Below, piece after piece: positions 7,742-63,761 of a stretch of DNA of 64,000 nt. Made by a program: the position numbers and the translations under genes. Under the pieces are notes generated by a model. That model worked only from the letters and a program-made list of their open reading frames with translations. It did no database searches and was not told where the DNA came from. How positions within the stretch are numbered: position 1 is the stretch's first letter; each line of letters starts with the position of its first letter. The DNA lies in contig JAHECO010000004.1 in assembly GCA_024641705.1 (NCBI GenBank), forward strand, positions 1 to 64,000, written 5' to 3'. The DNA is from Candidatus Kryptoniota bacterium (GTDB lineage: Bacteria; Bacteroidota; Ignavibacteria; Kryptoniales; JAKASW01).

Positions 7742-7755
7742 CGAGCGAATATGTC

Positions 7756-10614
7756 ATGAGACTTCTTCGTTTATTCGGGATACTGGTCGCGCTGGCGTTT
7801 GCTTTCAACCCGCCGCTTCTCCCCGGGCAGGAGAAAGGAACGATAAGCGGGAAGGTGACCGATGCGGCGACTAACGAAGGGCTTGTCGGGGTGAACGTTT
7901 TGATTAAGGGGACTTATTATGGTGCCACAACCGACCTCGACGGGAATTTCGAGATCAAGAATGTGAGCCCGGGTACGTACACGCTTTCCTTCAGACTGCT
8001 GGGATATAAGGTTGTCGAACAGACCGGCTTCGAGGTCACCGCCGGCAGCACAGCCGTTGTAAACATGAAGCTTCAGGAGACTGCACTGTCGCTCGGCCAG
8101 GAAGTCGTTGTGGTGGGCGAGAAGCCGATGATGGACGTTGCCGAAACGCAGAGCGTGAAGACGATCAGTTCCGAAGATATTCGAAGGGCAGCGGTGGAGA
8201 ACGTCAAGGACGTTGTAGCGCAGCAGGTCGGTGTGGTTGCCTCCGATAATGAAATCCATATCCGCGGCGGAAGGTCGTACGAAAACTCATACCTGCTCGA
8301 CGGGATCTCGATACAGGACCCGCTTGCCGGAACGGGTTTCGGCTTGCAGCTGAGCTCGAATTCGTTAAGCGAGATGGAAGTGATCACCGGCGGCTACAAC
8401 GCCGAGTACGGCCAGGCCACGAGCGGCATCGTGAACGTTAAGACGAAGGACGGGACGTCGAAGTACGATCTCTACGTCCAGTACAAAACCGATCACTGGG
8501 GACTGAACAGCAACTCCATCTCGAATTTCAATTCGGACGATTACGAGGCGAACGTCAGCGGTCCTGAGCCCATAACGAAATTCCTCCTTCCAGCCGTCGG
8601 GCTGAAGATACCCGGCGAGATAACACTTTTCGGCAGTTTCGCGGCCGGTTTCACTGACGGCCACGTCCGGTGGGCGGATCGCTACGAGGGCGGGCAGCTC
8701 ATTCAGTTCAAGATCAACACGCCGCCGCGTCTGAACTCCTCAATATTTTACGGGACGAGGTTCACTCCCCGGTTGAACAACAACTGGTACGGACTCGGCA
8801 AAGTCACATATAAGCCGACGCAGACGTTGAAGATTGCGTACTCATACAACCAGAGCGTGACCATCAACCAGAATTCCCAGTCGCTTCAGACGAATCTCGA
8901 ATACGTCGAGCCCAACCCGGGCTATCAATACCAGTTTCAGGATCTCCTCGGCAGCGCGGACGTCTACACGCATAACAGCATCGTCAACACGCTGAGTATA
9001 ACCCAGACACTGAGTGCGAAAACTTTCTACGATCTCAAGATCGCTCACTTCTTCACTCAGCTCCGCGCCGACGCCAACGGGCTCTACTGGACACAGTACC
9101 AGGAGCCGATCGACGTCGTCTCGCTGCCTCCTCAATATTACAATACCGGCAGCGACACAATCGGAATAATCCCCGGCGACGGCTTCTACGACTTCGGGAA
9201 CGCCGATACATGGCACGACCATTACTTCATCAACAACGAGATAAAGTTCGACATCACGAGCAACTTCACGGAGAAGAACAGGTTCAAAGCCGGTTTCGAC
9301 ATGAACTTCCAGGAGATGCAGCTCATAGACATATATGAGCCGTGGGTTGGAGTGATGGGGTTGAACAACGACATCTACAAAGTATACCCCGCGATGGGTT
9401 CGGCATACTCCCAGGAGACGATAACGACGAACGGCATGATACTGAATTTCGGCCTGCGTTTCGATTACTGGTTTCCGGGCAAGTATGTGGACGATGCCGT
9501 GAAGAACCCGGCGGTAGTTACGATCCCTCAGGGCGTGCGCGACAAGTACTATCAGGACACCTATGATTTCTTCGGCAGAAGATGGAAGGGGAGAATCAGC
9601 CCGCGCCTCGGCGTCTCGCACCCGGTCTCCGACAACCAGACGCTCTTCCTGAACTATGGTCATTTCTCCAAGTGGCCTCGTCCGCAGTTCGTCTACGCGA
9701 AACTCAGCCCGAGCAATGCGAGGTCCACGTTCCAGACGTTCGGCAATCCCGACCTCAACCCGGAAACGACCGTCAGTTACGAACTCGGCCTCCGCAACCA
9801 GTTCACCAACGACGATGTCCTGACGGTCACCGCCTATTACAAAGACATCTTCGACTATGTTCAGACGAAACAGGTTCAGATCTCTGCAGCGGGTCTGATC
9901 GGGCAGAACTTCACGACGTACGTCAATTCGGACTATGCCAGGGCACGCGGTATCGAAGTAGAGTACCGCAAGAGAATCGGGAACTGGTTCACCGGAACCA
10001 TAAGCGGCTCGTACTCCGTCGTGACGGGGAAATCGAGCTCTGCGGACGAGGGGCTGCTCGTCGTACGCGGCGATATGTTCGAAGTCATCAACGAGACCTA
10101 TCTAAACTGGGATCGCTCCGTGCAGCTCTCCGCCAACGTCTCCGTGTACAACAACAAAGGAAACGGCATCTTCGGGTTCGGCCGCGGTATCCTCGACGAT
10201 TTCCAGACTTACTGCAGGATATTCTTTGAGTCGGGAAAGAGATACACGCCGTATTACTTCACAGGTACGTACGCGGCGAACGGCCGCCCGCTCTATGCCC
10301 CTGATAACCAGAACCCCTACAGCAAGATAGGCTCGAACTGGTTCTGGGTCGACCTCAACGTCGAGAAGTATTTCAGTCTCGCCGGCATCGACTTCACGCT
10401 TCTTGTGGAAGTGAAAAACCTGTTCAACAACCTGAACGCGGCAATAATCGACCCGGTGACCGGGGATGCATATGTGCTGGGAGCCCCGGTGCCGTCTTCA
10501 TGGAACGACCCGTACTATCCCGAGCTCAACGCTCCGATCGACCCGTTCCCATTCAACACGGCGCGCTACCTGCCGTACCGGAACATCAAAATAGGCGTGG
10601 CGGTGAAGCTGTGA
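7756..10614 (+). CDS. TonB-dependent receptor with carboxypeptidase-regulatory-like N-terminal domain
   Basis: The 952-residue protein has a signal peptide ending near LLPGQ, a carboxypeptidase-D regulatory-like domain (about residues 30-110; GKVTDAATNEGLVGVNVLIKGT, DLDGNFEIKNVSPGTY), a plug domain (about 135-245; DVVAQQVGVVASDNEIHIRGGRS, YLLDGISIQDP, GGYNAEYGQATSGIVNV) and a beta-barrel to the C-terminus. Such receptors import substrates across the outer membrane using proton-motive force passed on by TonB. The substrate is not evident. ATG at 7756 is chosen because it opens the signal peptide; the open frame extends to 7402 but only antiparallel to real coding sequence of the preceding gene. 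Its stop overlaps the next ATG by one base (TGATG). Confidence 0.92.
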   Translation: MRLLRLFGILVALAFAFNPPLLPGQEKGTISGKVTDAATNEGLVGVNVLIKGTYYGATTDLDGNFEIKNVSPGTYTLSFRLLGYKVVEQTGFEVTAGSTAVVNMKLQETALSLGQEVVVVGEKPMMDVAETQSVKTISSEDIRRAAVENVKDVVAQQVGVVASDNEIHIRGGRSYENSYLLDGISIQDPLAGTGFGLQLSSNSLSEMEVITGGYNAEYGQATSGIVNVKTKDGTSKYDLYVQYKTDHWGLNSNSISNFNSDDYEANVSGPEPITKFLLPAVGLKIPGEITLFGSFAAGFTDGHVRWADRYEGGQLIQFKINTPPRLNSSIFYGTRFTPRLNNNWYGLGKVTYKPTQTLKIAYSYNQSVTINQNSQSLQTNLEYVEPNPGYQYQFQDLLGSADVYTHNSIVNTLSITQTLSAKTFYDLKIAHFFTQLRADANGLYWTQYQEPIDVVSLPPQYYNTGSDTIGIIPGDGFYDFGNADTWHDHYFINNEIKFDITSNFTEKNRFKAGFDMNFQEMQLIDIYEPWVGVMGLNNDIYKVYPAMGSAYSQETITTNGMILNFGLRFDYWFPGKYVDDAVKNPAVVTIPQGVRDKYYQDTYDFFGRRWKGRISPRLGVSHPVSDNQTLFLNYGHFSKWPRPQFVYAKLSPSNARSTFQTFGNPDLNPETTVSYELGLRNQFTNDDVLTVTAYYKDIFDYVQTKQVQISAAGLIGQNFTTYVNSDYARARGIEVEYRKRIGNWFTGTISGSYSVVTGKSSSADEGLLVVRGDMFEVINETYLNWDRSVQLSANVSVYNNKGNGIFGFGRGILDDFQTYCRIFFESGKRYTPYYFTGTYAANGRPLYAPDNQNPYSKIGSNWFWVDLNVEKYFSLAGIDFTLLVEVKNLFNNLNAAIIDPVTGDAYVLGAPVPSSWNDPYYPELNAPIDPFPFNTARYLPYRNIKIGVAVKL

Positions 10615-11134: not shown

Positions 11135-11155
11135 TTGACTTTTGAAATGCTTGAC

Positions 11156-12136
11156 ATGAAAAAGACAACCATAATATTCGCCATCATATTCTGGGCGGCC
11201 ATCTCCGTCCGCGCCCAACTCCTGCCCGTGCTCGGCGCGCAGAGGGCGGGGATAACGACCGCCGAATTTCTGAAAATTGGCGTTGGCGCGCGGGCGAACG
11301 CGATGGCCGAGAGTTTTGCCGCGGTCGGCGATGATGCGTTCTCGCTGTTCTACAACCCAGCGGGCATTACACAGTTCGATAAGGACGAGATTGCCATCTC
11401 GCATTCGACGTGGTTCATCGGACTTCAGCACGATTTCCTGGGCGCGGTCTACCATCTGGACAAACAGAACAGTGTCGGGATTTCCGCTATCTCGCTGCAA
11501 TCGGACGACATGCCGGTTACGACGGAATATGCGCCGACCGGGACCGGAGCCTACTTCAAGTACAGCGACCTCGCAGTCGCGGCAACTTACGCCAGGAAAA
11601 TGACCAACCAGTTCAGCTTCGGCCTGAGTGTGAGGTACATTTACGAGACACTCGGCGAAGTGAAGATGAACGGCCTTCTGATCGACCTCGGAACGTTCTA
11701 CTGGACCGGCCTCGGCACAACGAGGTTTGCCGTCGCCGTGAGCAACTTCGGCGGCCAGCTTACCCCTGCAGGGAGCGTGGAACTCGTCGACGGCACAACG
11801 GTATCGAAATTCCAGAGCTTCTCTCCGCCGACGATCTTCCGGATAGGGTTCGCATTCGAACCGTACCAGGACGAGGCAAACAAAGTCACCGCGTCGGCGC
11901 AGCTCAACCATCCTGCCGACAATTCGGAGAACGTGTCTCTCGGTGCGGAGTATTCCTTCAGGCAGTCATTCTTCCTGCGGGGCGGGTACAGGATCAACGT
12001 CGACGAGCAAAAGTTTTCGGTTGGAGCCGGCGTGAGGGTCGACGCGAAATTCGCGGCCATCAGCTTCGATTACGCGTTCACGCCGTATGAGCGCCTCGGA
12101 GACGTCCACAGATTTTCACTAAACCTTGGCTTCTGA
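11156..12136 (+). CDS. PorV/PorQ-family outer-membrane protein
   Basis: After a signal peptide (MKKTTIIFAIIFWAAISVRAQ), the protein reads 'AEFLKIGVGARANAMAESFAAVGDDAFSLFYNPAGI', the hallmark opening of the PorV/PorQ (UPF0164) family. The rest is a series of amphipathic strands ending in Phe (RFSLNLGF), as expected for a FadL-like barrel of about 14 strands. PorV proteins carry T9SS cargo or serve as outer-membrane partners; other homologues are of unknown role. Starts at TTG 11135, ATG 11147 and ATG 11156 are all in frame. I chose 11156 because it gives the best signal peptide and lies outside the repeat. The next lipoprotein starts one base after its stop. Confidence 0.88.
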   Translation: MKKTTIIFAIIFWAAISVRAQLLPVLGAQRAGITTAEFLKIGVGARANAMAESFAAVGDDAFSLFYNPAGITQFDKDEIAISHSTWFIGLQHDFLGAVYHLDKQNSVGISAISLQSDDMPVTTEYAPTGTGAYFKYSDLAVAATYARKMTNQFSFGLSVRYIYETLGEVKMNGLLIDLGTFYWTGLGTTRFAVAVSNFGGQLTPAGSVELVDGTTVSKFQSFSPPTIFRIGFAFEPYQDEANKVTASAQLNHPADNSENVSLGAEYSFRQSFFLRGGYRINVDEQKFSVGAGVRVDAKFAAISFDYAFTPYERLGDVHRFSLNLGF

Positions 12137-28593: not shown

Positions 28594-31500
28594 ATGAGCG
28601 GAAAGAGAGGGCTGCTTTCGCTCAGTGTCGGGATCGGCGGGGCATGGGTGTTTGCCGTTCTCGTCGTGCTTGTCGGCCGCATCTTGCATGTATCAATGAC
28701 GCGCGATCTCCTCATCGATACGATTATCATCACCAACATGATCTCGGTGGCGATTTCTCTGTTCGCTTTCTCGCGATACATAGTCCTCAGAGAAAGGCTT
28801 CTGGAATTCATAGCCCTTGCATTTCTTGTCGGCGGTTTCATAAGGATAAGCGGCGTAATCGTGTCCGACCTCGGCCTTCTGGGGAGTTCTCAGCATGCGT
28901 TCTATTTCCAGCTCGCTGCCTGGCAGGGAGGACGGTTCCTACTGGCGCTGATGCTGGCTGTGGGTACCATACTTGTCTGGATCTACCCCAAACCGAAATC
29001 CACCCTCTTCGACGTCTTCACGGGAGTCGTCATCGCCGGTATCATAGTAACTGTCGTTGTTTTCGTCTCCCAGGGGCACAAGATCGGTGACGAACTGTCA
29101 TCAGGGAACATGCGCCCGATGACCCTTCTCGTCGCAGGGTTCTTCCTGATCTCGTTCTTCGGGGTAAGCCGCAACTACCTCAAGTACCCGACCCTTTTCA
29201 ACTACACACTTAGCATCACCCTATTCCTTCTCACTCTTGCGGGCCTCGTGGGGTCTTTCTCCGTGAACATAACCGACACCGCTTCCGTCGCCCATCTGGG
29301 ACTGACGATGACGGCGTATCTGATCGGCGCCGTCGGCAGCCTCGTGGACGTGGGCCAGATATTCAGCGATTACGTCCGCAGCTCGGAAGGACTGAAAGCC
29401 GCCAACCAAGAGCTTCTTAAATACCAGGTCTACCTCGAAAAAGTCCCCGATCCTGTCAGGATAGTGAACGAGACGGGCTTCACGCTGTACGTGAACCCGG
29501 CATTTGAGAAGGTGTTCGGTTATACGCTCCAGGAAATGAGAGTGAGGCCGATAGACGAACTTTATGATTTGCCTGACCGGGAGAAAGCAAGCAGATACGC
29601 CGACCTGGTGGACCAGGGGAAGGGAAGCGAATTCGAACTCACCGTCATCACACATGACGGGGTGAAGGTCGATACGCTCCTGAATTCGGCCTCTATCATA
29701 ATTGACGGGAAGCGCCTCGGAACTATCACGATCTACAGGGACATCACAAGGCGGAAACAGCTCGAGCATCACAACCAGGTGTTGAGCGCGGCAGTCGAGA
29801 ATACCGGCGAAGCGATAGCCCTTACCGATGCCGACGGGTACGTGACCTTCTTCAACACTGCCGCCGAGGAACTTTTCGGTTACACCCTGGATGAGTTGCC
29901 GGGGCGGGGCCTCTGGGCGATCGTCTCCCCGAGTTTCGGTTATTACAAGGCGCGGGAGATCTTCGTACAGACCGTGCGCGGCGGCGGCTGGAAAGGCGAA
30001 GTCCTGAACCGGAGGAAGGATGGAACGGAGTACTACATATCGCTTAGCACCAGCTGCATCAAAGGCTCCAACGGCGTGATCATCGCGCTGGTGGGCATCT
30101 GCGAGGACATAACCGACAAGAAGTGGGAAGAGAAGAGGAAGGAAACGGCGTATCGTGTAGCGCAGCTCGCTTTCACGAGCGGTACGATCTCCGACCTTGC
30201 CGAATCGGCAGTTGCTCTCCTTGCAGAGATACTCGGAGCCCCCCTGGCATCGCTCTACTCCTACGACGAGAAGGGGATGGTCCTGGAACTTCTTGCTCAG
30301 CGAAACGCACAGGGGAAGTCGCCGAACGTTCCGGTTCTCCAGAGGCTTGAGGCCAGCCCCGAAACGAACGCGGCCCGTGCGGCCAAACTCTGCAAAATGG
30401 TTTACAGCAGGTCGCTGTCGGAGACCGAATTCGCCGAGTTCGAGGGTGAACCATTCTTCCGGGAATCCAAAGGGTTGATCAGCCTGCCGCTCGTCACATC
30501 CGGCGAACTCGTCGGAGTTTTGCAGTATGTGTCGGTGGCCTCGCCCGGAAACATCAAGTACGAGGCCGATCTTGCCGAGGCCGCCGCGATCGAACTTGCC
30601 GCCGGAGTCCAGAGACTGAAGCTCGGCGGAAAAGTCGCGGAGCAGGCAGACCAGCTCGAGAAAATATTCGCAAGCGCGGCAGAAGGGATTGCCCTCGTCG
30701 ACAGGGTTGGCAGAATAATCCTGATGAACGAAGGGGGCAAGAGGACGTTCGGAATAGGCGAGATCCCGGAGGTGGGCTTCTCCGAGTTCGCGGAAAAGCT
30801 CGGGATGCACAGGCTCGATGGGATGCCTCTTGCTGAAGACGAAAACCCCGTCAGGCTTGCGGCAATTGAAGGGAAGGATATCCGAAACAGCGAGCTTATG
30901 ATAAAGCGCAACGGTCTCGAGCGCATCCTTTCGGTCAGCGCTTCGCCGCTGATCGACCGCGGGCGCGACGTCAACGGTGCGGTGGTGATCTTCAGTGACA
31001 TAACCGACCAGAAGAGAAATGAACTTGCGATCAAGAAGCAGAACAGGAGACTCTCGGTAATCAACCGGATGGCGCTTGCCGTCAAGGACGCGCTGGATGT
31101 TTTCGAAATCCTGAACAAGAGCCTGACGAGGCTTCTCGAGTTCGAAGAGCTGTCCGGGGCCGCCGTATATCTGCTCAACGAGTCGACGGGTAACCTGAAC
31201 CTCGCAACCTCGCTCGGGTTCGGACCTGCATTCATGAAGGAGGAAAGCATCAAGTCGATTCCCCTGGCGAACGGGTTCCTCCTCGAAACGATGAAGTCGG
31301 GCATGCCCCAGCCGATTCCAAATCTTGGGAGCGGGATTGAACCGGTGCCCCTGTTCGATGCACTGCGGAGGGAAAACATGACATCTGCAGTGATAATTCC
31401 CATCCTCGGCACGCGCAAGACTCACGGGGTTCTCCTTGCGTCGTCCAGGCAGATCATGGAGCTTGCTGAGTCCGATGAAGAATTTTTTATGATGATTTCC

Positions 31501-33162
31501 CGCGTACTCGGCGGAGCGGTGGAAAACGCATTCCTGTACTCGGATATCCTGGAGAAGTCGAACGAGCTCGAGGATTCGAACGAGCAGCTCCGGATGTCCA
31601 AGATCTGGGTCGAAGAGGCCAACGCGCAGCTCGTCCAGGCCAACCAGCAGCTTGAAGAGGCCAGCAGGCTGAAGAGCCAGTTCCTCGCCAACATGAGCCA
31701 TGAGCTCCGCACACCGCTCAACTCCATAATAGGATTCACGAACCTGGTACTTACCGACGACATCCAACCGCCGACAGGGGAACAGAAGGAAGGGCTGGAG
31801 ATAGTACTCCGCAACGCGAAGAACCTTCTCGCGCTTATAAACGACATTCTCGATCTCTCGAAGATAGAGGCCGGGCGAATTACGATATCGCCGGAAGAAC
31901 TGAACCTCGAATCCGTGGTGAGCGACGCTATAGCCACCATAGCTCCGCTTCTGGGTGACAAACCGGTGAAACTGGACACTGAAATGGAGGAAGGACTCCC
32001 GGTACTTTTCTCCGACCCCGCCAGATTAAAGCAGATCGTCCTGAACCTCCTGAGCAATGCCGCTAAATTCACTGACGAGGGCCATATCAAGGTAATTGCG
32101 AATCTCCTTGAGGGGAATTTCATTTCTCTCGCCGTCGAAGATACGGGCTCCGGTATCCCGGCCGATTATCTGGAAGTCGTGTTCGAGGAATTCAGGCAGG
32201 TCGACGGTTCCAACACCAGGAAGCACGGCGGCACCGGCCTGGGCCTCGCGATATCGAGGAAGCTTGCGCGCATGCTCGGCGGGGACCTCACGGTCAGAAG
32301 TGAGGTCGGGAAAGGCTCTACGTTCACAATGACCCTGCCGACATCATACCGCCAGGCGGAGAAGGCAAAGCCGGCAGAGAGACCGGAGGTGCCCCCGACA
32401 CCTAATGCACTTCCCCATACTAACAACCTGGTCGTCTGTATCGACGACGATCCCGATGTACTCCTCCTTCTGAAGAATCACCTCGAGTCGGAGGGTTTCG
32501 AGTTCGCGGGGATCAGCGATTCGAGAACGGCACTGGACAAGGTTAAGAAGAACAGACCCGTCCTCGTTACTCTGGACATTATGATGCCGAACAAAGACGG
32601 CTGGCAGATCCTGCAGGAGCTGAAGGCCGACCCCGAGCTGAAAGACATACCGGTCGTCATTCACTCCGTGGTTGAGAACAAAGCACTCGCCGTGTCGCTG
32701 GGAGCGGAGTCGTATATGGTGAAACCGGTCGCGGCCGACCAGATTATTTCGGTCGTCCGGAACTATACCGGCACTTCGGGAGGTGAGATACTTGTCGTCG
32801 ACGACAGCGAGGACTTCACGAATTTCCTCAGGAACCTTCTCGAAAAGAGCAAGTTCGAAATATCTACCGCACGCAACGGTGTTGAAGCTATCGATTTCCT
32901 CAAGAAGAATGTCCCGTCCCTCGTTTTCCTCGATCTGCTTATGCCGGAAATGGACGGCTTTGAGGTGGTCGAGAAGATGAATGAGGATGAAAGGCTCAGG
33001 GAAGTTCCGATAGTTGTGCTTACTGCCAAGGAGGTAACTGAAGAGGAGAGGTCTACTCTCAATTCGAAGATAAAGAATATCGTGCAGAAGGAAGGCTTAA
33101 CGAGGGAGATAATCCTTCGCGAGGTAAATAAATTCATACAGAGAAAAAAACGGCAGTCCTGA
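28594..33162 (+). CDS. Membrane hybrid sensor histidine kinase (PAS-PAS-GAF-PAS-GAF-HisKA-HATPase-REC-REC)
   Basis: The 1522-residue protein starts with about seven or eight transmembrane helices (residues 8-250). PAS domains lie near 276-390, 396-510 and 686-810, and GAF domains near 521-680 and 818-985, with a coiled coil before the kinase core. The phospho-acceptor His1036 is in MSHELRTPLNS, the ATPase N-box in LNLLSNAAKF and the G boxes in DTGSGIP and GGTGLGLAISRKL. Two receivers follow, with Asp1328 (TLDIMMPNKDG) and Asp1447 (FLDLLMPEMDG). The second receiver ends 'NIVQKEG', without the usual Lys-Pro. The signal sensed is unknown. The layout points to integrating redox, small-molecule and membrane cues through the adjacent CheY-like protein. 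Confidence 0.94.
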   Translation: MSGKRGLLSLSVGIGGAWVFAVLVVLVGRILHVSMTRDLLIDTIIITNMISVAISLFAFSRYIVLRERLLEFIALAFLVGGFIRISGVIVSDLGLLGSSQHAFYFQLAAWQGGRFLLALMLAVGTILVWIYPKPKSTLFDVFTGVVIAGIIVTVVVFVSQGHKIGDELSSGNMRPMTLLVAGFFLISFFGVSRNYLKYPTLFNYTLSITLFLLTLAGLVGSFSVNITDTASVAHLGLTMTAYLIGAVGSLVDVGQIFSDYVRSSEGLKAANQELLKYQVYLEKVPDPVRIVNETGFTLYVNPAFEKVFGYTLQEMRVRPIDELYDLPDREKASRYADLVDQGKGSEFELTVITHDGVKVDTLLNSASIIIDGKRLGTITIYRDITRRKQLEHHNQVLSAAVENTGEAIALTDADGYVTFFNTAAEELFGYTLDELPGRGLWAIVSPSFGYYKAREIFVQTVRGGGWKGEVLNRRKDGTEYYISLSTSCIKGSNGVIIALVGICEDITDKKWEEKRKETAYRVAQLAFTSGTISDLAESAVALLAEILGAPLASLYSYDEKGMVLELLAQRNAQGKSPNVPVLQRLEASPETNAARAAKLCKMVYSRSLSETEFAEFEGEPFFRESKGLISLPLVTSGELVGVLQYVSVASPGNIKYEADLAEAAAIELAAGVQRLKLGGKVAEQADQLEKIFASAAEGIALVDRVGRIILMNEGGKRTFGIGEIPEVGFSEFAEKLGMHRLDGMPLAEDENPVRLAAIEGKDIRNSELMIKRNGLERILSVSASPLIDRGRDVNGAVVIFSDITDQKRNELAIKKQNRRLSVINRMALAVKDALDVFEILNKSLTRLLEFEELSGAAVYLLNESTGNLNLATSLGFGPAFMKEESIKSIPLANGFLLETMKSGMPQPIPNLGSGIEPVPLFDALRRENMTSAVIIPILGTRKTHGVLLASSRQIMELAESDEEFFMMISRVLGGAVENAFLYSDILEKSNELEDSNEQLRMSKIWVEEANAQLVQANQQLEEASRLKSQFLANMSHELRTPLNSIIGFTNLVLTDDIQPPTGEQKEGLEIVLRNAKNLLALINDILDLSKIEAGRITISPEELNLESVVSDAIATIAPLLGDKPVKLDTEMEEGLPVLFSDPARLKQIVLNLLSNAAKFTDEGHIKVIANLLEGNFISLAVEDTGSGIPADYLEVVFEEFRQVDGSNTRKHGGTGLGLAISRKLARMLGGDLTVRSEVGKGSTFTMTLPTSYRQAEKAKPAERPEVPPTPNALPHTNNLVVCIDDDPDVLLLLKNHLESEGFEFAGISDSRTALDKVKKNRPVLVTLDIMMPNKDGWQILQELKADPELKDIPVVIHSVVENKALAVSLGAESYMVKPVAADQIISVVRNYTGTSGGEILVVDDSEDFTNFLRNLLEKSKFEISTARNGVEAIDFLKKNVPSLVFLDLLMPEMDGFEVVEKMNEDERLREVPIVVLTAKEVTEEERSTLNSKIKNIVQKEGLTREIILREVNKFIQRKKRQS

Positions 33163-42708: not shown

Positions 42709-44742
42709 ATGGGTAAGCTATCTACCATTTGTACCATGGCCTTACTGCTGTTTGCTGGCGTCGTGCAGTCACAAACTCCTAATGCGAAGATCGAAGTGGT
42801 TGGGATGTCGCCCTACCAGTTCGCGAAGCATTACGGATCTCAGGGGAGCAGGACCGCGACCTCAGGATTGAATACAGTCGGTAAAGGCTCAATCGTCTAT
42901 CTGGACGCAGAAGATTTGAATGAAGGAACGATCACTTCCGTGACGTGGTCTATCCTAAGCAAGCCGGTCGGATCGGTCGCCGTCATCGACAGCGCAAGCA
43001 AGGTGTTCACCACTATGAAGGTCGATAGTATCGGCCAGTACATGGTTGAAGTGAGTTTGACAACCTCCGGCGGTACGGCAAAAGATACGGTCACGATCAA
43101 TTCGGCAACTTACATCGGGGTCGGCAACTTCGAAGGCGGGACACCCAGCTACGCGCTCGGGCAGTGCGCCCTCGGATGTCACTCTGCGAACGTAGACTCG
43201 TGGACGACGTCGGTTCATGCAGTCTTCTTTAAGGATGCCATCGACGGCACGGACCTGAGACAGACTCACTATTCCAAGACATGCATCGGTTGCCACACAA
43301 CCGGATATGATACGAACGCCACCAACGGTGGATTCGACGATCTGATGAAGACATCCGGATGGACGTTCCCGAGCACTTATGTCGACACGAATTTCGCGCA
43401 TCTCCAGGCAGCATCGGCCCAGCTCGCACAGCTTGCAACGATCGGTTGCGAGAACTGCCACGGTCCGGGGAGCGAACACAAGGGAGACCCGTCCAAGATA
43501 AGCGTATCGCTCGACGTCAAGGTTTGTGCGCAGTGCCATGATGCACCTACACATCATTCGATCGTCAGAGAGTACGCCACCAGCAGCCATGGGTTGAACG
43601 CTATCCAGGAAGAGGATGCCGGAGTAAATAACGCTTCGTGCGCAAAGTGCCACAATGGGACCGGCTTCTATCTCTATGCCTCTGGCAAGACAATTTCCGG
43701 TGCACAGGCCACGCAGCCGATCGGTTGCGCATCGTGTCATGACCCGCATTCGGCCGCGAACCCGCACCAGCTGAGAAAAGTCACGGCCGATACCCTGATG
43801 AACGGGTTCAAGATACCGGACGCAGGGAGCGGCGGTCTCTGCATGAACTGTCACCGGTCAAGGCGGACTGCAGACACGTATACGAAGAAATGGGCCAGTC
43901 ACTACAGCCCGCATTACGGCACGCAGACCGATATGCTCTACGGCCAGAACGCGGTCCAGTTCGGCGACAATACCATTACGGGCGTATCGACCCACACTCA
44001 GCTGGAAGATGCCTGTGTCACGTGCCACATGTCTGCGGCTAGCGGCAAAGTCGCATATTTGCTCGGCAGTCACACGTGGAAGATGGCCGGTCCCGACAGC
44101 TCGGGGACTATGACGGAGAACGTAAGTGTGTGCGAATCTTGTCACGGACCCATCGAGAGCTTTGACGACATCAAAGCAGGCGACGATTACGACGGCAACG
44201 GCAAAGTGGAGGGTGTACAGACGGAGGTGAAGGGACTGCTGGCGAAGCTGGCTGCCCTGCTGCCGAAAGACACCTCGGGCGCCGTGAGCACAGACTCGGC
44301 GGCGATAGCCGGTAATCCGAACTATCTCAAGGGTGTCTACGATTATCTCTACGTGGTCAACGACGGAAGCTACGGTGTCCACAACGCGAAATACACATTC
44401 GGTATCCTAACGAGAGCCATCGGCACTTTGACCGGAGTCGAAGTTGTTCCCAACAAAGTTCCGAAGACCTTTGCTCTCGAGCAGAACTATCCGAACCCGT
44501 TCAACCCGTCGACGACCATCAACTTCTCGGTCCCGAAATCCGGGAACGTCAAGATCACGATCTACAACTCGATCGGTCAGCTGGTGAAGACTCTGGTTGA
44601 CAATCACTTCACAGCGGGTTCATACAAGGTAACCTGGGACGGAAGGAACAATTCCGGCACTTCGGTATCGAGCGGTGTCTATTTCTACAAGTTCACCTCG
44701 AGAGATTTCGCTCAGACCCGAAAAATGATGTTGATGAAGTAG
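42709..44742 (+). CDS. Nine-heme c-type cytochrome with T9SS type A sorting domain
   Basis: A signal peptide (about residues 1-21) is followed by a beta-sandwich region (about 60-140) and a heme-rich core. Heme motifs occur at residues 192, 247, 273, 311, 340, 378, 436 and 475 (all CXXCH, e.g. CIGCH, CENCH, CMNCH). The first, at residue 153, reads CALGCH, a rare CX3CH. The last 90 residues are a T9SS sorting domain (EQNYPNPFNPSTTINFSVP, ITIYNSIGQLVKTL, GVYFYKF, RKMMLMK), which should send the protein to the cell surface. The core resembles cytochrome c554-like and other multiheme proteins. It is a candidate for electron transfer to external acceptors. GAGGAG precedes ATG 42709 by eight bases. 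Confidence 0.93.
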   Translation: MGKLSTICTMALLLFAGVVQSQTPNAKIEVVGMSPYQFAKHYGSQGSRTATSGLNTVGKGSIVYLDAEDLNEGTITSVTWSILSKPVGSVAVIDSASKVFTTMKVDSIGQYMVEVSLTTSGGTAKDTVTINSATYIGVGNFEGGTPSYALGQCALGCHSANVDSWTTSVHAVFFKDAIDGTDLRQTHYSKTCIGCHTTGYDTNATNGGFDDLMKTSGWTFPSTYVDTNFAHLQAASAQLAQLATIGCENCHGPGSEHKGDPSKISVSLDVKVCAQCHDAPTHHSIVREYATSSHGLNAIQEEDAGVNNASCAKCHNGTGFYLYASGKTISGAQATQPIGCASCHDPHSAANPHQLRKVTADTLMNGFKIPDAGSGGLCMNCHRSRRTADTYTKKWASHYSPHYGTQTDMLYGQNAVQFGDNTITGVSTHTQLEDACVTCHMSAASGKVAYLLGSHTWKMAGPDSSGTMTENVSVCESCHGPIESFDDIKAGDDYDGNGKVEGVQTEVKGLLAKLAALLPKDTSGAVSTDSAAIAGNPNYLKGVYDYLYVVNDGSYGVHNAKYTFGILTRAIGTLTGVEVVPNKVPKTFALEQNYPNPFNPSTTINFSVPKSGNVKITIYNSIGQLVKTLVDNHFTAGSYKVTWDGRNNSGTSVSSGVYFYKFTSRDFAQTRKMMLMK

Positions 44743-44754
44743 GCTCTCTTGAAA

Positions 44755-44790
44755 TGGCCGCCACCCTCCCAGGAGTGGCGGTCATTTCTT
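44755..44790 (+). terminator. Intrinsic terminator after the first multiheme cytochrome
   Basis: TGGCCGCCAC (44755-44764) pairs with GTGGCGGTCA (44775-44784) with one G-T pair, followed by TTTCTTC. It implies that the two cytochromes have separate transcripts at least in part. Confidence 0.75.
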
Positions 44791-45028
44791 CATTTTCAAT
44801 TCCTCCAGACGGAGGTCACGGTAGGGTGTCCCAAAATGCCCAGGGATAAGGCAAAATACTATCCATTCAGGGGTAGATAGAGAAAGTCTAATTAGTCCCC
44901 GCCTTTTTTGAATGAATTTAGCGCAAAATCGGCTCCATTCATTGGCATCTTAATTGCATCTTCATCCGTGTAATTTGTGTTTGAGTTTCCTAATTATTGC
45001 CAAAAGCACAAGAAAAGGAGAATTAGCT

Positions 45029-47152
45029 ATGAGGAAACGAATTGTCACCACGTTTGTGATGGTATTCCTCGCAGCTGGGTTAGCTTACTCGCAGACAGCA
45101 GTACCAAAGGCTGGCATTCAGATTGTCGGGATGACCCCCTACACACTGGACGAAGCTTATGGTTCCCAAGGAAGTTCGATGTATGCCACGACAGGGCTGA
45201 GCACCGTCGGGGAGAAGACTCTGGTTTTTCTTCAGGCAATCGATTCCACAGGAGGCGCAATCCAGTCTGTTAGCTGGTCGGTCACCGGTGGGCCCGCTAA
45301 AATTGACAGCGCGTCGACGCCGTTCACGACCATTACATTTGACACGACGGGGGAATACACGGTCAATGTTTCGATCACTACTTCGGGGGGCACATCCCAG
45401 GCATCGGCCGTATTCACGTCGGCGAATTACGTCGGTGTCGGCTACATGGGTATAGTTTCGAACGACTCCGCCGTGACCAATGGCGGCGGACAGCCCGTTG
45501 CCCCGTCTGTCGCTCCCGAGTGCGGCACATGCCACCAGGGTGCGATGGTAGGATTCGGACTTGATCCGACCGCGGACTACGCGAACTGGATGAATACCGA
45601 ACACGCCAGTATGTTCAAGAACGGCGTGAACGGAGTGGTCAGTTCGCACTACGGCTCCAGCTGTATGCAGTGTCACACAACGGGATACAACCCCGGCGCG
45701 AAGAATGGGAATTTTGCAGACGTAGCTTCGCAGGTCGGTTGGACTTTCCCGTCGACGCTTGTGGATACCAACTTCGCTCATGTGTACCATACCTCGGCAC
45801 AGCTGGCGCAGTTGGGGACGATCGGCTGCGAAAGCTGCCACGGTCCTGGAAGCGAACACGTCGGGGATCCGGCGAAGATTTCCGTCTCCCTGAGCGCAAG
45901 TGTTTGCCTGCAATGCCACGACGAACCCCCGCATCACGCGATAGGCAGAGAGTGGACCAGCAGCCCGCACGACAGCGGGATGGCAGCGCTCCAGGCCGGC
46001 GACGCGATGCTTAACAACGCCCCCTGCGCGCAGTGTCACAATGCCGGAGGGTTTGCAGACTACGCGACAGAAGGAAGCATTTCGTCCAGCTACAGTCCAA
46101 TGCCTCTGACATGCGCCGGATGCCACAATCCCCATCTGATTGATGGGAATCATCCCTACCAGTTGAGAAAAGTCACCGCCGATACTCTGCAGAACGGGTT
46201 CCAGATAACCGAGGGTGGTGTAGGCGTGCTTTGCATGAATTGTCACCGCTCGCGCGCCAATGCCAACGCAACGGTCAACGGCGGATGGAAGCGGTACTTC
46301 GGTCCCCATGAAGGACCTCAAACGGACGTCTTCTTCGGTCAAGACGGATACCAGTTCGGTGACAACTCGATCACCGGTCTTAATACCCACATGCAGCTCA
46401 CGGACGCATGCGTCACCTGCCATATGGCTACCGATACCGTCGATGCAAACGCCTCGATGAGCCTTGGCAGCCATACGTGGAAGATGAGCGGTGCCGATGC
46501 AGTGGGAGACACGACGGACAATACAACTGCCTGTCAGTCCTGCCACGGCCCGATCACCGACTTCGACCAGATACCGGCTGCTTACGATTACGCCGGCATT
46601 GCCAACGGCGGCCCGGTACCGGGCGTCCAGACCGAAGTCAAGGCGCTTCTGGCTAAGCTCGCCTCGTTTATCCCGGATTCGGTCCTCGCCAACCCGGGCA
46701 GCGCTACAGTCGGCAGCGGGCTTACGAAAGACCAGCTTGGCGCCCTCTGGGATTACCTCCTGATATCCAAGGACGGAAGCTACGGCGTCCACAACGCGAA
46801 GTACACCTTTGCGCTGCTGACGAGAGCTATCGGAACCTTCACTGGAGTAAAGGTGCTCGACAACAAAGTGCCGAGGACTTACGCTCTGGAACAGAACTAC
46901 CCGAACCCGTTCAACCCGACCACGACGATCAACTTCTCGGTGCCGAAAACGGGTATGGTCAATATCTCCGTCTACAATGCGATCGGCCAGCTCGTTAAGG
47001 TCCTCGCGAACGACAACTACGTACCCGGAACCTACCAGATCATATGGAACGGGATGAACCAGTCGGGTACCCAGATCGCCAGCGGAGTGTACTTCTACAA
47101 GTTCACTTCGAAGAATTACGTCAGAACGATGAAGATGATGTTGCTTAAGTAA
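45029..47152 (+). CDS. Nine-heme c-type cytochrome with T9SS type A sorting domain (paralogue)
   Basis: The 707-residue product aligns with the preceding cytochrome throughout: signal peptide, beta domain, nine CXXCH motifs (residues 165, 212, 267, 293, 333, 362, 402, 461, 502) and a T9SS sorting domain (EQNYPNPFNPTTTINFSVP, ISVYNAIGQLVKVL, GVYFYKF, MKMMLLK). Its first heme motif is an ordinary CGTCH, where the paralogue has CX3CH. Shared non-heme blocks such as GPGSEH, ADTLxNGF and DGSYGVHNAKYTF, show recent duplication followed by divergence. AAAAGGAG lies eight bases before ATG 45029; the longer upstream frame (to 44954) is leader. Surface export and electron transfer are inferred. Confidence 0.93.
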   Translation: MRKRIVTTFVMVFLAAGLAYSQTAVPKAGIQIVGMTPYTLDEAYGSQGSSMYATTGLSTVGEKTLVFLQAIDSTGGAIQSVSWSVTGGPAKIDSASTPFTTITFDTTGEYTVNVSITTSGGTSQASAVFTSANYVGVGYMGIVSNDSAVTNGGGQPVAPSVAPECGTCHQGAMVGFGLDPTADYANWMNTEHASMFKNGVNGVVSSHYGSSCMQCHTTGYNPGAKNGNFADVASQVGWTFPSTLVDTNFAHVYHTSAQLAQLGTIGCESCHGPGSEHVGDPAKISVSLSASVCLQCHDEPPHHAIGREWTSSPHDSGMAALQAGDAMLNNAPCAQCHNAGGFADYATEGSISSSYSPMPLTCAGCHNPHLIDGNHPYQLRKVTADTLQNGFQITEGGVGVLCMNCHRSRANANATVNGGWKRYFGPHEGPQTDVFFGQDGYQFGDNSITGLNTHMQLTDACVTCHMATDTVDANASMSLGSHTWKMSGADAVGDTTDNTTACQSCHGPITDFDQIPAAYDYAGIANGGPVPGVQTEVKALLAKLASFIPDSVLANPGSATVGSGLTKDQLGALWDYLLISKDGSYGVHNAKYTFALLTRAIGTFTGVKVLDNKVPRTYALEQNYPNPFNPTTTINFSVPKTGMVNISVYNAIGQLVKVLANDNYVPGTYQIIWNGMNQSGTQIASGVYFYKFTSKNYVRTMKMMLLK

Positions 47153-60324: not shown

Positions 60325-63147
60325 TCAGCTGGAAACGGTATTCAGAAGCTGGTCGACGAGCTTCGTCATCTCGCCTGTGCTGTAGGGTTTCTGCAGGAAC
60401 CCGTCGGCATAGTTTCCAAGAACGCTCTCGAGGTCGGACAGCTCGCTGTACCCGGTACAGATTAGAACTCTCGGGGGATTGTCCTGCTTCTTTATTTCCA
60501 TGCAGGTATCCTTGCCCCCCATCCCCGGCATAACCATGTCGAGGACAACAAGTTTGACGTCGGGATTTTCTTTCAGTCGCTCGAGGGCCTGTAATCCGTC
60601 GGTCGCCGTGACAACGTCGTAACCGTGCTCGCTGAGGATATCGTAACTGAGTTGCCGCACGCCTTCCTCGTCGTCGACTACGAGGATCTTCACTCCTTTG
60701 GTGGCGAATGTTCTTGCGGGTTCAGGTGCCGGCCCGGATTTCGGTTTCTCGGAGAAACTCGGGAGGTATATGGTGACTTTCGTTCCGGTGCCCGGCGTCG
60801 ACCCGACTTCGATGAATCCCTTGTGGTGCTTCACTATGTTGAATGCCATACTGAGACTCAGACCGGTGTATTTCTTGACTCGCTTCGTAGTGAAGAAAGG
60901 TTCGAAGATGCGCCTCTTTATAGTGTCGTCCATCCCGATCCCGTGATCTTCGATCTCCACGAAGCAGTGCTCACCGCCGGTCACATAGGCCGGCGCCGAC
61001 TCGGGCACGTTGGCGAGCCCGACGGTGCACATGATCGTCCCGCCGTCTTCCATTGATTCGGCCGCGTTAGTCAGCAGGGCGAGGATCACCTGCCTGAGCT
61101 GAGAGGTGCTCACGCGAGTGTGGATCGGGCGTTCGGACTGCCTCATCAGGATCGAATACCTGTCGCCGTGGGTCTTCCTGAAATCGACGACGATGTTCCC
61201 GCAGAACCTGTTGAAGTCGACAACCTCGAGAGTCTTTGCATCGAGCTGGGCAAATCCGAGGACCTCTTTCACCAACTCCGTAGTCCTCCGCGAAGAACTC
61301 TCGATGATATCGGCGTAGTGATGTTCCTTGGAGTCGGGAGGCAATTTTCTTTTCAGGAGAGACGCGTAGCCGGTTATGCTGCCGATTATGTTGTTAAGGT
61401 CGTGAGTGAGGGAAGACGCAAGCCTTCCGAGCGCCTCGATCTTCTTTTCATTCGTCGCGTAGTTCTGGTAGTACTGCAGGTCGCTCGTGTCCTGCACCGT
61501 GGCATAGAATATCTTCGACGTCGGTTCGAACTGGAGGGCAAACTCGAAATTCTTGCGGCCCCGGGGGGCGTTGACGGCTGCCGAGAATCTTACGAATTTC
61601 TCCTTCCATACTGCTGCCACACTGCCCAAGAGATCGTCGAATCTTCCGGCATCTTCGGGGGCGAGGTAATCGCGCACCTTCTTTCCCGCGAGGCTCTCGT
61701 CGTCGAACATCTGCATGGCGATCTTGTTCGCCGTCTCGACTGCGCCTTTCTCGGAGAGGGTCATCAGTCCGAACACCGAGTTGTTGTACAGCTTCTCGAG
61801 TGCTGCGCCCTGTTCCTTCACGACATCGAACAGTTCGGCAGACCTGTAAGCGGAATAGACGTGCAGTATGTACGAGACGATCAGCGCGCGGGGGAGTCTT
61901 TGCGAGATCGGGCCGACATGATTGAAGGCCACCAGGAAATCCCTGGTCGATGGATTGGGTGCAACCACAGTGACTTTCCCGCGCGAAAGATGTTCATTCA
62001 TGAATTCAAACATACGGCCCCGGCTCCCGCGGTCAGGGTCTTCTTCGAAGAGGCCGTCAACAGTCGTGTTCCAGAGGGCCTCGCCATCCGAGAGACACTC
62101 GAAAATATGCGATAACGAGCCGCTTTCAAATCTTTTCGTCTCGGTGATCACACGGTTCCCCGACAGAGTGAGGGCTGTGAGGAGGACACCGGCATCCAGC
62201 GGTGCGAACTCCGCAAAAATGGCGGCCTGCGTACCGGCGAGAGAATGCGCCCTTCTCAACGTCAGAGTGACGATCTTCTTTGTGTCGAGAACGCCGGTAA
62301 GCTCGGCAATGCTGTCGAAAAAGACCCTCAGTATCCTGTTTTGAACCTCGAACTGGGCGGTCTTCCGCGTGACCCGCGACCGGAGGACATAAACGAAAGA
62401 TGCGAGTACAACCATAAGTACGAAGACAATACCAAGCACGAACTCGATCGATCCGGAATAGCGGCTGAGCAGGCTCTCATGTATCGCCCGCAGGTCGGCC
62501 GAAGACCGGAGAAAAATGTCGTCGCCGTTGGTATACGGCCTCTTGAACGAAAACCTTGTGGAGATGCCCGTCAGGGAGTAGATCTCACCGATCCGGATAT
62601 CGCCCGGTTCGAACTGGGGATCCTGACGGAAATCAAGAAAGGCCGACGCGGTGTCGTCATTCTGCCCAACGAACGATATCGTGATCCCGTTGCCTCTGAA
62701 AGCTGTCCCTATCACTGTGCCCTTACAAGTGACGAGGAGGCCGTGAAAGCTTCCGTCTTTCACCTGCCCGGCCGTCACGCGTACCGGGCCTACTTTCAGC
62801 CTGCGCCGCAGGATTCGGATTTTTGGCGAAACGACTTCTTCCTGGCCGTAGTAAATCCCCAGCCTTCCCGTCGCCACTAAGCTGTCGCCCACGAAAAGGG
62901 AAGGCCCTCTATAGTTGAATTCGAACAGCCTGATGCCGGAAGTCCGATCCTGAATGAAAACCTCGAGAGAGGAATCAGTTCTGGCGGAGGGAACGGTTAC
63001 GACTCCGGTGACGGTCACGAGCCGGTTTGATTCCTCCACGGCATCGCGTCGCGCCGTAAGTCTTATCGCCTCTTTTATGGATGTGACCTGCTGGGAGCGC
63101 GCCGGGATTAAAATGAACGCTGACAGGATCAGGACGGCGAGGTTCAA
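60325..63147 (-). CDS. Exported-sensor hybrid histidine kinase (OB-fold-like, GAF, PAS, HisKA, HATPase, REC)
   Basis: The 940-residue product starts with a signal-like helix (MNLAVLILSAFILIPARSQQ, from TTG). A periplasmic domain at about residues 30-220 has OB-fold-like strands ('RLVTVTGVVTVPSARTDSSLEVFIQDRTSGIRLFEF'), followed by a transmembrane helix near 235-255. A GAF-like region, a PAS domain (about 450-560) and the kinase core follow: His582 in SSLTHDLNNIIGS, ATPase boxes EDHGIGM and FEPFFTTK, then a receiver with Asp870 (VVLDMVMPGMGG). TTG 63147 overlaps the stop of the upstream HTH-receiver gene (TTGA) and suits translational coupling. The upstream open frame to 63462 is antiparallel shadow of that gene. 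Confidence 0.92.
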   Translation of the reverse strand: MNLAVLILSAFILIPARSQQVTSIKEAIRLTARRDAVEESNRLVTVTGVVTVPSARTDSSLEVFIQDRTSGIRLFEFNYRGPSLFVGDSLVATGRLGIYYGQEEVVSPKIRILRRRLKVGPVRVTAGQVKDGSFHGLLVTCKGTVIGTAFRGNGITISFVGQNDDTASAFLDFRQDPQFEPGDIRIGEIYSLTGISTRFSFKRPYTNGDDIFLRSSADLRAIHESLLSRYSGSIEFVLGIVFVLMVVLASFVYVLRSRVTRKTAQFEVQNRILRVFFDSIAELTGVLDTKKIVTLTLRRAHSLAGTQAAIFAEFAPLDAGVLLTALTLSGNRVITETKRFESGSLSHIFECLSDGEALWNTTVDGLFEEDPDRGSRGRMFEFMNEHLSRGKVTVVAPNPSTRDFLVAFNHVGPISQRLPRALIVSYILHVYSAYRSAELFDVVKEQGAALEKLYNNSVFGLMTLSEKGAVETANKIAMQMFDDESLAGKKVRDYLAPEDAGRFDDLLGSVAAVWKEKFVRFSAAVNAPRGRKNFEFALQFEPTSKIFYATVQDTSDLQYYQNYATNEKKIEALGRLASSLTHDLNNIIGSITGYASLLKRKLPPDSKEHHYADIIESSSRRTTELVKEVLGFAQLDAKTLEVVDFNRFCGNIVVDFRKTHGDRYSILMRQSERPIHTRVSTSQLRQVILALLTNAAESMEDGGTIMCTVGLANVPESAPAYVTGGEHCFVEIEDHGIGMDDTIKRRIFEPFFTTKRVKKYTGLSLSMAFNIVKHHKGFIEVGSTPGTGTKVTIYLPSFSEKPKSGPAPEPARTFATKGVKILVVDDEEGVRQLSYDILSEHGYDVVTATDGLQALERLKENPDVKLVVLDMVMPGMGGKDTCMEIKKQDNPPRVLICTGYSELSDLESVLGNYADGFLQKPYSTGEMTKLVDQLLNTVSS

Positions 63148-63761
63148 GAAATTCCTCTCCCGCCGAGGTCCCCCGCCGACAGGAGGTTCAGCACTGAATG
63201 GACGAGCTCGGCCGTCGAGACCGGCTTTGCCAGCCACTGGTCTGCCCGGGATCTTCTCAGCCTTTCGATTGCAGCCGCTGAAAGGTTGCCTGATAGCACG
63301 AGCACCTTCAGGTGGTAATTGACCTTCCGGTCCGCGATTAGTTCCAGTACCTTGAAGCCGTCGATACCGGGCATCATAAGATCCAGCACGATCAGCTCGG
63401 GCTTGAACTCGCCGATGAGGACCAACGCCTCGTAACCGTCTCCGCTTATCTTGACATCGCAATTCTCAAGCTTATCCTGCAATACCTCGCGAATCATCCC
63501 GGCGTAGGCTTCATCGTCGTCGATTATTAAGATTCTTTTCGGATGCTCTCCCCCAAAGTCAAAATTGATATCCATGCTGTGAGCTTTCAGGAATTGTCTG
63601 AGATCAGAAGGCCAGATTCTGAAGTGCCCACCGGGGGTACAATAGGCCTTCAACTTGCCTGCTCTGATCCAATTGTTGATGGTTCTTGTTGTGACGCGGC
63701 AAATCTGGGCTGCCTGGCCAACGCCCAATGGCCACGACGTAGAGGTGTTTTCTGCCAGCAT
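63144..63761 (-). CDS. HTH-receiver protein: excisionase/MerR-like DNA-binding domain fused to a response regulator domain
   Basis: Residues 13-60 ('GVGQAAQICRVTTRTINNWIRAGKLKAYCTPGGHFRIWPSDLRQFL') are a winged helix of the excisionase/MerR/BldC-like type. Residues about 75-200 are a receiver with IIDDDEA, phospho-acceptor Asp127 (VLDLMMPGIDG) and Lys in WLAKPVS. The order is reversed compared with typical regulators, where the receiver comes first. It could bind DNA in response to phosphorylation by the kinase encoded next, with which it overlaps by four bases. A promoter with 17-base spacing lies upstream. Confidence 0.9.
   Translation of the reverse strand: MLAENTSTSWPLGVGQAAQICRVTTRTINNWIRAGKLKAYCTPGGHFRIWPSDLRQFLKAHSMDINFDFGGEHPKRILIIDDDEAYAGMIREVLQDKLENCDVKISGDGYEALVLIGEFKPELIVLDLMMPGIDGFKVLELIADRKVNYHLKVLVLSGNLSAAAIERLRRSRADQWLAKPVSTAELVHSVLNLLSAGDLGGRGIS

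Follow-up and report, generated by a model that had tools for sequence, protein, structure and literature searches.

Tandem nonaheme cytochromes with type IX secretion tags as candidate surface terminal reductases in a Candidatus Kryptoniota bacterium

Two neighbouring genes in the window under study, a stretch of 64,000 nucleotides from a Candidatus Kryptoniota bacterium (contig JAHECO010000004.1, positions 1 to 64,000), combine a nine-heme count with a C-terminal tag for the type IX secretion system (T9SS). The observation was confirmed, and the pattern is not fortuitous since more than 100 homologues preserve the number and spacing of the motifs as well as the tag. Judged from the sequence data, the two products are probably cytochromes of the OcwA/OmhA type that T9SS would display on the cell surface, where they would act as the terminal reductases of a porin-cytochrome conduit.

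Architecture and setting of the gene pair

The features of the window to which reference is made are the following:
42709..44742, + strand: nonaheme cytochrome 1, complete ORF, 677 aa
43144..44400 (approximate bounds), + strand: OcwA/NrfA-superfamily heme core of gene 1, extending from around the heme-1 motif as far as the C-terminal three-helix region
44488..44730, + strand: T9SS type A sorting domain of gene 1 (TIGR04183)
44754..44790, + strand: terminator-like hairpin AAATGGCCGCCAC...GTGGCGGTCATTT, 3' of gene 1, read by eye
45029..47152, + strand: nonaheme cytochrome 2, complete ORF, 707 aa
45521..46850, + strand: heme core of gene 2, aa 165 (heme-1 motif) to aa 607 (three-helix region)
46898..47140, + strand: T9SS type A sorting domain of gene 2 (TIGR04183)
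11135..12136, + strand: outer-membrane protein of the PorV family (T9SS shuttle family), in the same window, away from the pair

The two genes are paralogues, about 55% identical over the alignment, and their products share the same order of domains, namely a putative signal peptide, an Ig/PKD-like N domain, the heme core, the three-helix region and the T9SS tag. Both N-termini, read from the sequence without a predictor, are hydrophobic and end in AYSQ (gene 1) or VQSQ (gene 2); the start of gene 2 is placed at the ATG at 45029, which lies in the reading frame of a TTG-started ORF (44954-47152). The nine heme motifs attributed to each protein by the first-pass annotation hold to the letter for gene 2, with its nine CxxCH, but not for gene 1, in which eight CxxCH are accompanied by CALGCH, a CX3CH representing a putative heme site at the heme-1 position. 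This variant was probably inherited, because the sister orthologue L124 likewise has eight CxxCH and one CX3CH; the other gene-1 orthologues have CxxCH at this position.

The hairpin located after gene 1 suggests that the two genes constitute separate transcription units; a promoter/terminator scan was uninformative and did not list this hairpin, the loop being too long for the scan. The pair is flanked by genes for phosphofructokinase, methylglyoxal synthase and RNase HII, and is kept in tandem in 7 of the 13 genomes of the genus (L034, L035 and L037 being among the loci showing it). A search of the plasmid collection gave no match.

The presence of a sorting domain at the C-terminus of both proteins, already proposed at first reading, is borne out by TIGR04183 scores of 37.6 (gene 1) and 33.0 bits (gene 2), with a cut-off of 23. 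The Pfam profiles Por_Secre_tail and FlgD_ig agree with this assignment, gene 2 remaining slightly under their cut-off of 27 (25.2 and 26.6, respectively). A Foldseek search with the AF2 model of gene 2, built with 22 homologues, returned FlgD, PorZ, PorU and the translocon substrate CTD chains 8GL8_D and 8GL6_D, the fold of the gene 2 CTD resembling that of the translocon-bound CTDs of RemZ/RemA. In both the C-terminal TIGR04183 domain and this fold the window proteins are like known T9SS type A cargo (RemA/RemZ, gingipains), from which they differ in that they are predicted to bear nine covalently bound hemes. The tag is under purifying selection, like the heme core, as indicated by dN/dS values of 0.03-0.14, to be read with the caveat that dS is often saturated.

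Kinship of the heme core

In profile searches the core matched OcwA (6I5B, E 5e-31) and 6QVM (E 3e-23), the next best match being at 9e-13, so that the OcwA/OmhA matches outrank MccA, c554 and NrfA. The entry 6QVM, named "Multiheme cytochrome cf", is presumably OmhA, which like OcwA is a surface Fe(III) reductase. The relationship to OcwA rests on sequence profiles; Foldseek with the AF2 model of gene 2 did not return OcwA. That model has low confidence over the heme core (mean pLDDT 61, with values near 40 in the middle) and is usable only in its N-terminal beta domain, helical end and tag.

With OcwA of Thermincola potens (6I5B; PMC6703420) the window proteins share the nine hemes, the order of c554-like and NrfA-like hemes, the C-terminal three-helix region and, in alignment, seven of the eight invariant non-motif histidines. 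On the other hand, OcwA belongs to a Gram-positive host and has neither a T9SS tag nor this kind of N-terminal Ig-like domain, and the position of its heme-9 Met ligand is probably taken by an invariant His (H454). Furthermore, the open hemes 2 and 5 of OcwA each have a distal His-His pair, whereas in the window proteins the heme-5 pair is replaced and only that of heme 2 is kept, OcwA H281/H282 being aligned with HH in both; for this reason they are designated "OcwA-like" and not OcwA. OcwA is a terminal reductase at the cell surface; it is slow with nitrite as substrate and converts hydroxylamine in both the reductive and the oxidative direction (PMC6703420). The similarity to OmhA of Carboxydothermus ferrireducens likewise concerns the core; OmhA, which has 11 predicted hemes, a Gram-positive host and no T9SS tag, is the sole cytochrome detected on the cell surface and on biogenic magnetite (PMC7829351).

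Secretion genes, conduit genes and their distribution

A genome devoid of a T9SS translocon, which the first-pass annotation had regarded as fatal to its proposal of heme-bearing T9SS cargo, is not what was found. Matches over the cut-off in the source genome comprise SprA (795 + 205 bits), PorU (659 bits) and no fewer than 13 members of the PorV family, one of them inside the window; 122 TIGR04183 sites are also present. The presence of T9SS is judged here from SprA, PorU and the PorV family. The ccm genes, which it had been suggested to look for, are represented by heme-attachment proteins of the CcmC/CcmF type. Both sets of genes support the notion of such cargo, as does the conservation of the tag across the phyla possessing T9SS. 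Core homologues occur in 112 of the 197 genomes of the class, and the tag is found at the end of all long alignment rows (114/114) from Ignavibacteria-type, Neomarinimicrobiota and Calditrichota genomes. In the Chloroflexota homologues it is found in none of four, three of which have a lipobox, and a lipobox in place of the tag is seen also in the related hexaheme proteins of family f3.

Another contig of the same genome, C38, contains a cluster composed of a barrel, a 14-heme cytochrome and a multiheme lipoprotein cytochrome (lipobox ASC), and encodes also NapC/NirT-type 18-heme and b-type cytochromes. No Pfam or NCBIfam name was found for the barrel, which matches porins and for which 22-23 strands are predicted in an L088 homologue. 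The cluster has the predicted composition of a porin-cytochrome complex of the MtrCAB or OmbB-OmaB-OmcB type, i.e., a barrel adjoining many-heme periplasmic and outer lipoprotein cytochromes, with the difference that the additional terminal cytochrome would reach the surface by T9SS and not as a lipoprotein. Of the 112 genomes of the class having the core, 108 have the barrel as well, against 19 of the 85 lacking the core, a co-occurrence whose P value overstates the case given the phylogenetic non-independence of the genomes. Core and barrel lie within 20 kb of each other in 14 of 100 genomes, with approximately one expected, and in several relatives conduit genes stand beside the tagged gene, as in the clusters tagged cytochrome-barrel-14-heme-6-heme (L235), tagged cytochrome-barrel-14-heme (L238) and tagged cytochrome-4-heme-barrel-14-heme-multiheme (L051). 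In the source genome the conduit genes are not near the pair, a distance that was counted against the reading favored here, as was the existence of nitrite-reducing relatives of the core family.

Proposed route and its alternatives

According to the favored reading, the cytochromes would be exported first by Sec, would receive their hemes in the periplasm through the CcmC/CcmF-type proteins and would then fold; the holo-protein would traverse SprA guided by its C-terminal tag and a PorV-family carrier, after which PorU would cut off the tag and attach the protein to the surface. Quinol would donate electrons to the 18-heme (NapC/NirT-type) and b-type cytochromes encoded on C38; the 14-heme cytochrome inside its barrel would carry them across the outer membrane, and the surface lipoprotein cytochrome would hand them to the nonaheme protein, from which they would reach a solid or soluble acceptor. 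The tagged cytochrome would work with, and not instead of, an ordinary outer-membrane conduit.

It is unlikely, though deserving of consideration, that the proteins are surface enzymes and not wires, namely T9SS-exported reductases of nitrite, hydroxylamine, NO or a sulfur oxyanion having their active site at heme 2 and perhaps serving detoxification. The core does group with c554, NrfA, octaheme nitrite reductase and MccA, and both the activities of OcwA and the alignment of its heme-2 His-His pair point in this direction; yet the best matches are OcwA/OmhA and not NrfA, whose hallmark (a pentaheme with a CxxCK active-site heme) is replaced by nine motifs all ending in H. Furthermore, a conserved enzymatic site is made less likely by three facts: across the core family the heme-2 pair is not conserved, R or Y being equally common, the heme-5 pair is missing, and in operon-linked relatives the heme-2 motif itself is lost. 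The genes are, besides, linked to an electron conduit.

The premise of the first-pass annotation that porin-cytochrome complexes are absent from the window is correct but does not extend to the genome, and its corollary, that the T9SS cytochromes constitute their own conduit and bring electrons out with no such complex, is scarcely credible. Four genomes (G109, G114, G134 and G166) do have the core with no barrel match, two of them being 74-78% complete, but the C38 cluster, the nearly constant company of the barrel and the joint gene clusters speak to the contrary, and a protein attached to the outer face of the outer membrane cannot span that membrane alone. A vestigial tag, or one acting only for the N- and C-terminal beta domains, with the cytochromes residing in the periplasm as some other proteins of the NrfA superfamily do, is very improbable in view of the purifying selection on the tag and its presence in all long homologues of the T9SS phyla; where it is lacking, a lipobox replaces it in the f3 hexahemes and in three of the four Chloroflexota proteins, some anchor being found throughout.

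What is established about the delivery of multiheme cytochromes beyond the outer membrane concerns chiefly the lipoprotein and type II routes. A literature search, outside of which were subscription papers and preprints, yielded no paper combining multiheme cytochromes with type IX secretion and no experimentally shown T9SS cargo with c-type heme, and the Melioribacter roseus and Caldithrix papers searched do not mention T9SS-tagged multiheme cytochromes. In three papers cytochromes, type IX secretion and extracellular electron transfer (EET) co-occur, by term counts in passing only. It seems reasonably likely that, throughout the class and also in some members of the Neomarinimicrobiota and Calditrichota, the last step of EET relies on nonaheme cytochromes that T9SS routinely exports already folded and loaded with heme, by a previously undescribed route. 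If so, the range of T9SS cargo would be widened to proteins with covalent cofactors, the bulk of folded substrate that SprA can pass would be put to the test, and the association of OcwA-like core, T9SS tag and 14-heme conduit would serve as a genomic marker by which Ignavibacteria and neighbouring groups respiring minerals or electrodes are recognised. The T9SS route is testable, since genes of this kind are present in the cultivated relatives Stygiobacter electus and M. roseus (MAG).

Two paralogous cytochromes with an OcwA-like core

Two neighbouring genes encode the multiheme proteins:

42709-44742, +: gene 1, nonaheme-type cytochrome, complete, 677 aa
45029-47152, +: gene 2, nonaheme cytochrome, complete, 707 aa

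The products are paralogues (55% identity over the alignment) in which the tail, i.e. the C-terminal T9SS sorting domain, and most heme motifs are almost identical. The nine heme motifs ascribed to each protein by the first-pass annotation are confirmed for gene 2 (nine CxxCH) but not for gene 1, which has eight CxxCH and CALGCH at the heme-1 position. This CX3CH, a candidate heme site, is probably an inherited change and not a sequencing error, since the closest sister of gene 1 (L124) likewise has eight CxxCH and one CX3CH; the gene 1 orthologues of L034, L035 and L037 have CxxCH at heme 1. A terminator-like hairpin is seen in the sequence 3′ of gene 1, so that each gene may be transcribed as a unit of its own; the flanking genes, by sequence phosphofructokinase, methylglyoxal synthase and RNase HII, are unrelated to electron transfer. 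In the tree, the copies of gene 1 and those of gene 2 in the genus form separate groups with full support, which dates the duplication to the origin of the genus or before it.

A profile of 22 homologues matched OcwA (6I5B, E 5e-31), a nonaheme terminal reductase at the cell surface (PMC6703420), and 6QVM (E 3e-23), followed by octaheme nitrite reductase, MccA, c554 and NrfA. Two hemes of OcwA, 2 and 5, are open and lie below one His-His pair each; the ligand of heme 9 is Met (PMC6703420). Across 118 aligned rows, eight histidines outside the motifs show no or almost no variation (H192, H277, H314, H369, H427, H454, H482 and H588, gene 2 numbering); seven align with OcwA histidines, whereas H454 falls where OcwA has SVM, which suggests that a histidine replaces the Met ligand of heme 9. 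The OcwA heme-2 His-His pair aligns with HH302/303 of gene 2, and similarly in gene 1, whereas the heme-5 pair is not retained in the window proteins; the numbering offset of 29 is consistent with both published OcwA pairs.

The sorting domain and its export machinery

As the first-pass annotation had proposed, both proteins carry a C-terminal T9SS sorting domain; it is of type A (TIGR04183) and scores over the NCBIfam cut-off in each; Pfam matches comprise Por_Secre_tail, FlgD_ig and multiheme profiles including MtrC/MtrF II-IV and cytochrome c554. Structure modelling of gene 2 gave high confidence for an N-terminal beta sandwich and the tail and moderate confidence for the C-terminal helices; the heme core is poorly modelled. 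In Foldseek the tail groups with FlgD, PorZ, PorU and the substrate CTDs of the SprA-PorV translocons 8GL8 and 8GL6, in which type A CTDs bind PorV loops inside the SprA pore (PMC10994853). Purifying selection on the tail is similar to that on the core (dN/dS 0.03-0.14, dS being often saturated).

The absence of a T9SS translocon, the main objection foreseen to T9SS export, is not what the genome displays, because it holds 122 TIGR04183 sites, SprA, PorU, at least 13 proteins scoring above the cut-off for the PorV family and, for heme attachment, one CcmC-like and two CcmF/NrfE-like proteins, under the equivalog cut-offs but clear. One PorV-family protein is inside the window:

11135-12136: PorV-family protein, profile over cut-off

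A T9SS cargo protein (3041-5215), a TonB-dependent receptor (7402-10614) and this protein lie within 9 kb. The window also encodes large sensor kinases of the hybrid type that combine PAS/GAF with receiver domains (28594-33162 and 60325-63462 (-)).

The core was matched in 112 of the 197 genomes of the class, six of them solely via shorter, untagged hexaheme lipoproteins; in named records the family occurs in Melioribacteraceae and other Ignavibacteria, Neomarinimicrobiota, Calditrichota and Chloroflexota. Where Stygiobacter electus and Melioribacter fall in the tree suggests that the class is Ignavibacteria. Scored with an HMM built solely from 18 non-cytochrome tails of the same genome, the tail is present in 114/114 long rows from T9SS phyla (~110 distinct, three pairs being identical; two rows truncated at contig ends are left out) and in 0/4 Chloroflexota rows, three of which have a lipobox. 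Six-heme relatives of family f3 (L213-L219), with a lipobox of SACEGPEG type and no tag, represent a second anchoring mode for a related core. Other T9SS-tagged multiheme proteins (L039 7520-10555; L069 5374-7350) have seven CxxCH plus odd motifs and are not full-length members of the core family.

Association with a porin-cytochrome conduit

A cluster on contig C38 of the same genome runs from an 18-heme protein that includes a b-type cytochrome part, through a second b-type cytochrome, a 9-heme membrane protein, a third b-type cytochrome and a NapC/NirT-type 18-heme protein, to a tetraheme protein resembling c554; then come an outer-membrane barrel, a 14-heme protein and, last, a multiheme cytochrome that is a lipoprotein. 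The barrel has no name in databases; its homologue in L088 is modelled with 22-23 long strands and matches porins. Barrel homologues occur in 127/197 genomes of the class: 108 have barrel and core, four core alone, 19 barrel alone and 66 neither (Fisher P 1e-29, a descriptive figure because genomes share ancestry). Core and barrel are at most 20 kb apart in 14 of the 100 genomes with placed hits, versus ~1 expected (families f4, f7, f9 and f14). L235 has tagged cytochrome, barrel, 14-heme and 6-heme in that order, L238 (f9) has tagged cytochrome, barrel and 14-heme, and L051 has tagged nonaheme, 4-heme, barrel, 14-heme and multiheme (gaps ≤41 bases); in L236, L237 and L239 tagged cytochrome and conduit genes are divergent or nearby. 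The C38 cluster, the barrel in 108/112 core-positive genomes and this linkage disfavour the earlier idea of a T9SS route dispensing with porin-cytochrome complexes, Geobacter-like and MtrB-like forms of which are already known in Ignavibacteria (PMC7399161).

Genes, domains, conservation and the association of tagged cytochrome and conduit are shown by sequence. Heme would be attached before export, the T9SS would export the holo-protein, whose folded core could plausibly fit through the SprA pore, and PorU would process it; anchored at the surface, it would receive electrons and pass them to a presumed acceptor. The parts are of known kinds and the novelty would lie in their combination, OcwA-like terminal reductases putatively delivered by T9SS; multiheme cytochrome plus T9SS was not found described in the open-access journal papers searched.

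Conduit-linked relatives often have eight CxxCH (L235 3188-5299, L236 6827-9067 and L237 12851-14965; f7, f14), and in L235 the heme-2 motif is FRVH, the cysteines being lost at the heme equivalent to the OcwA active site. A small T9SS-tagged protein adjoins the tagged cytochrome in three genomes (L239 1970-2848, L235 687-1502, L236 5920-6732), with no CxxCH in L239 and L235 and one in L236. On contig C57 of genome G000, two reading frames that overlap and contain 20 and 10 CxxCH (L101, 4413-6961 (-)) may together represent a single, very large cytochrome interrupted by a frameshift.
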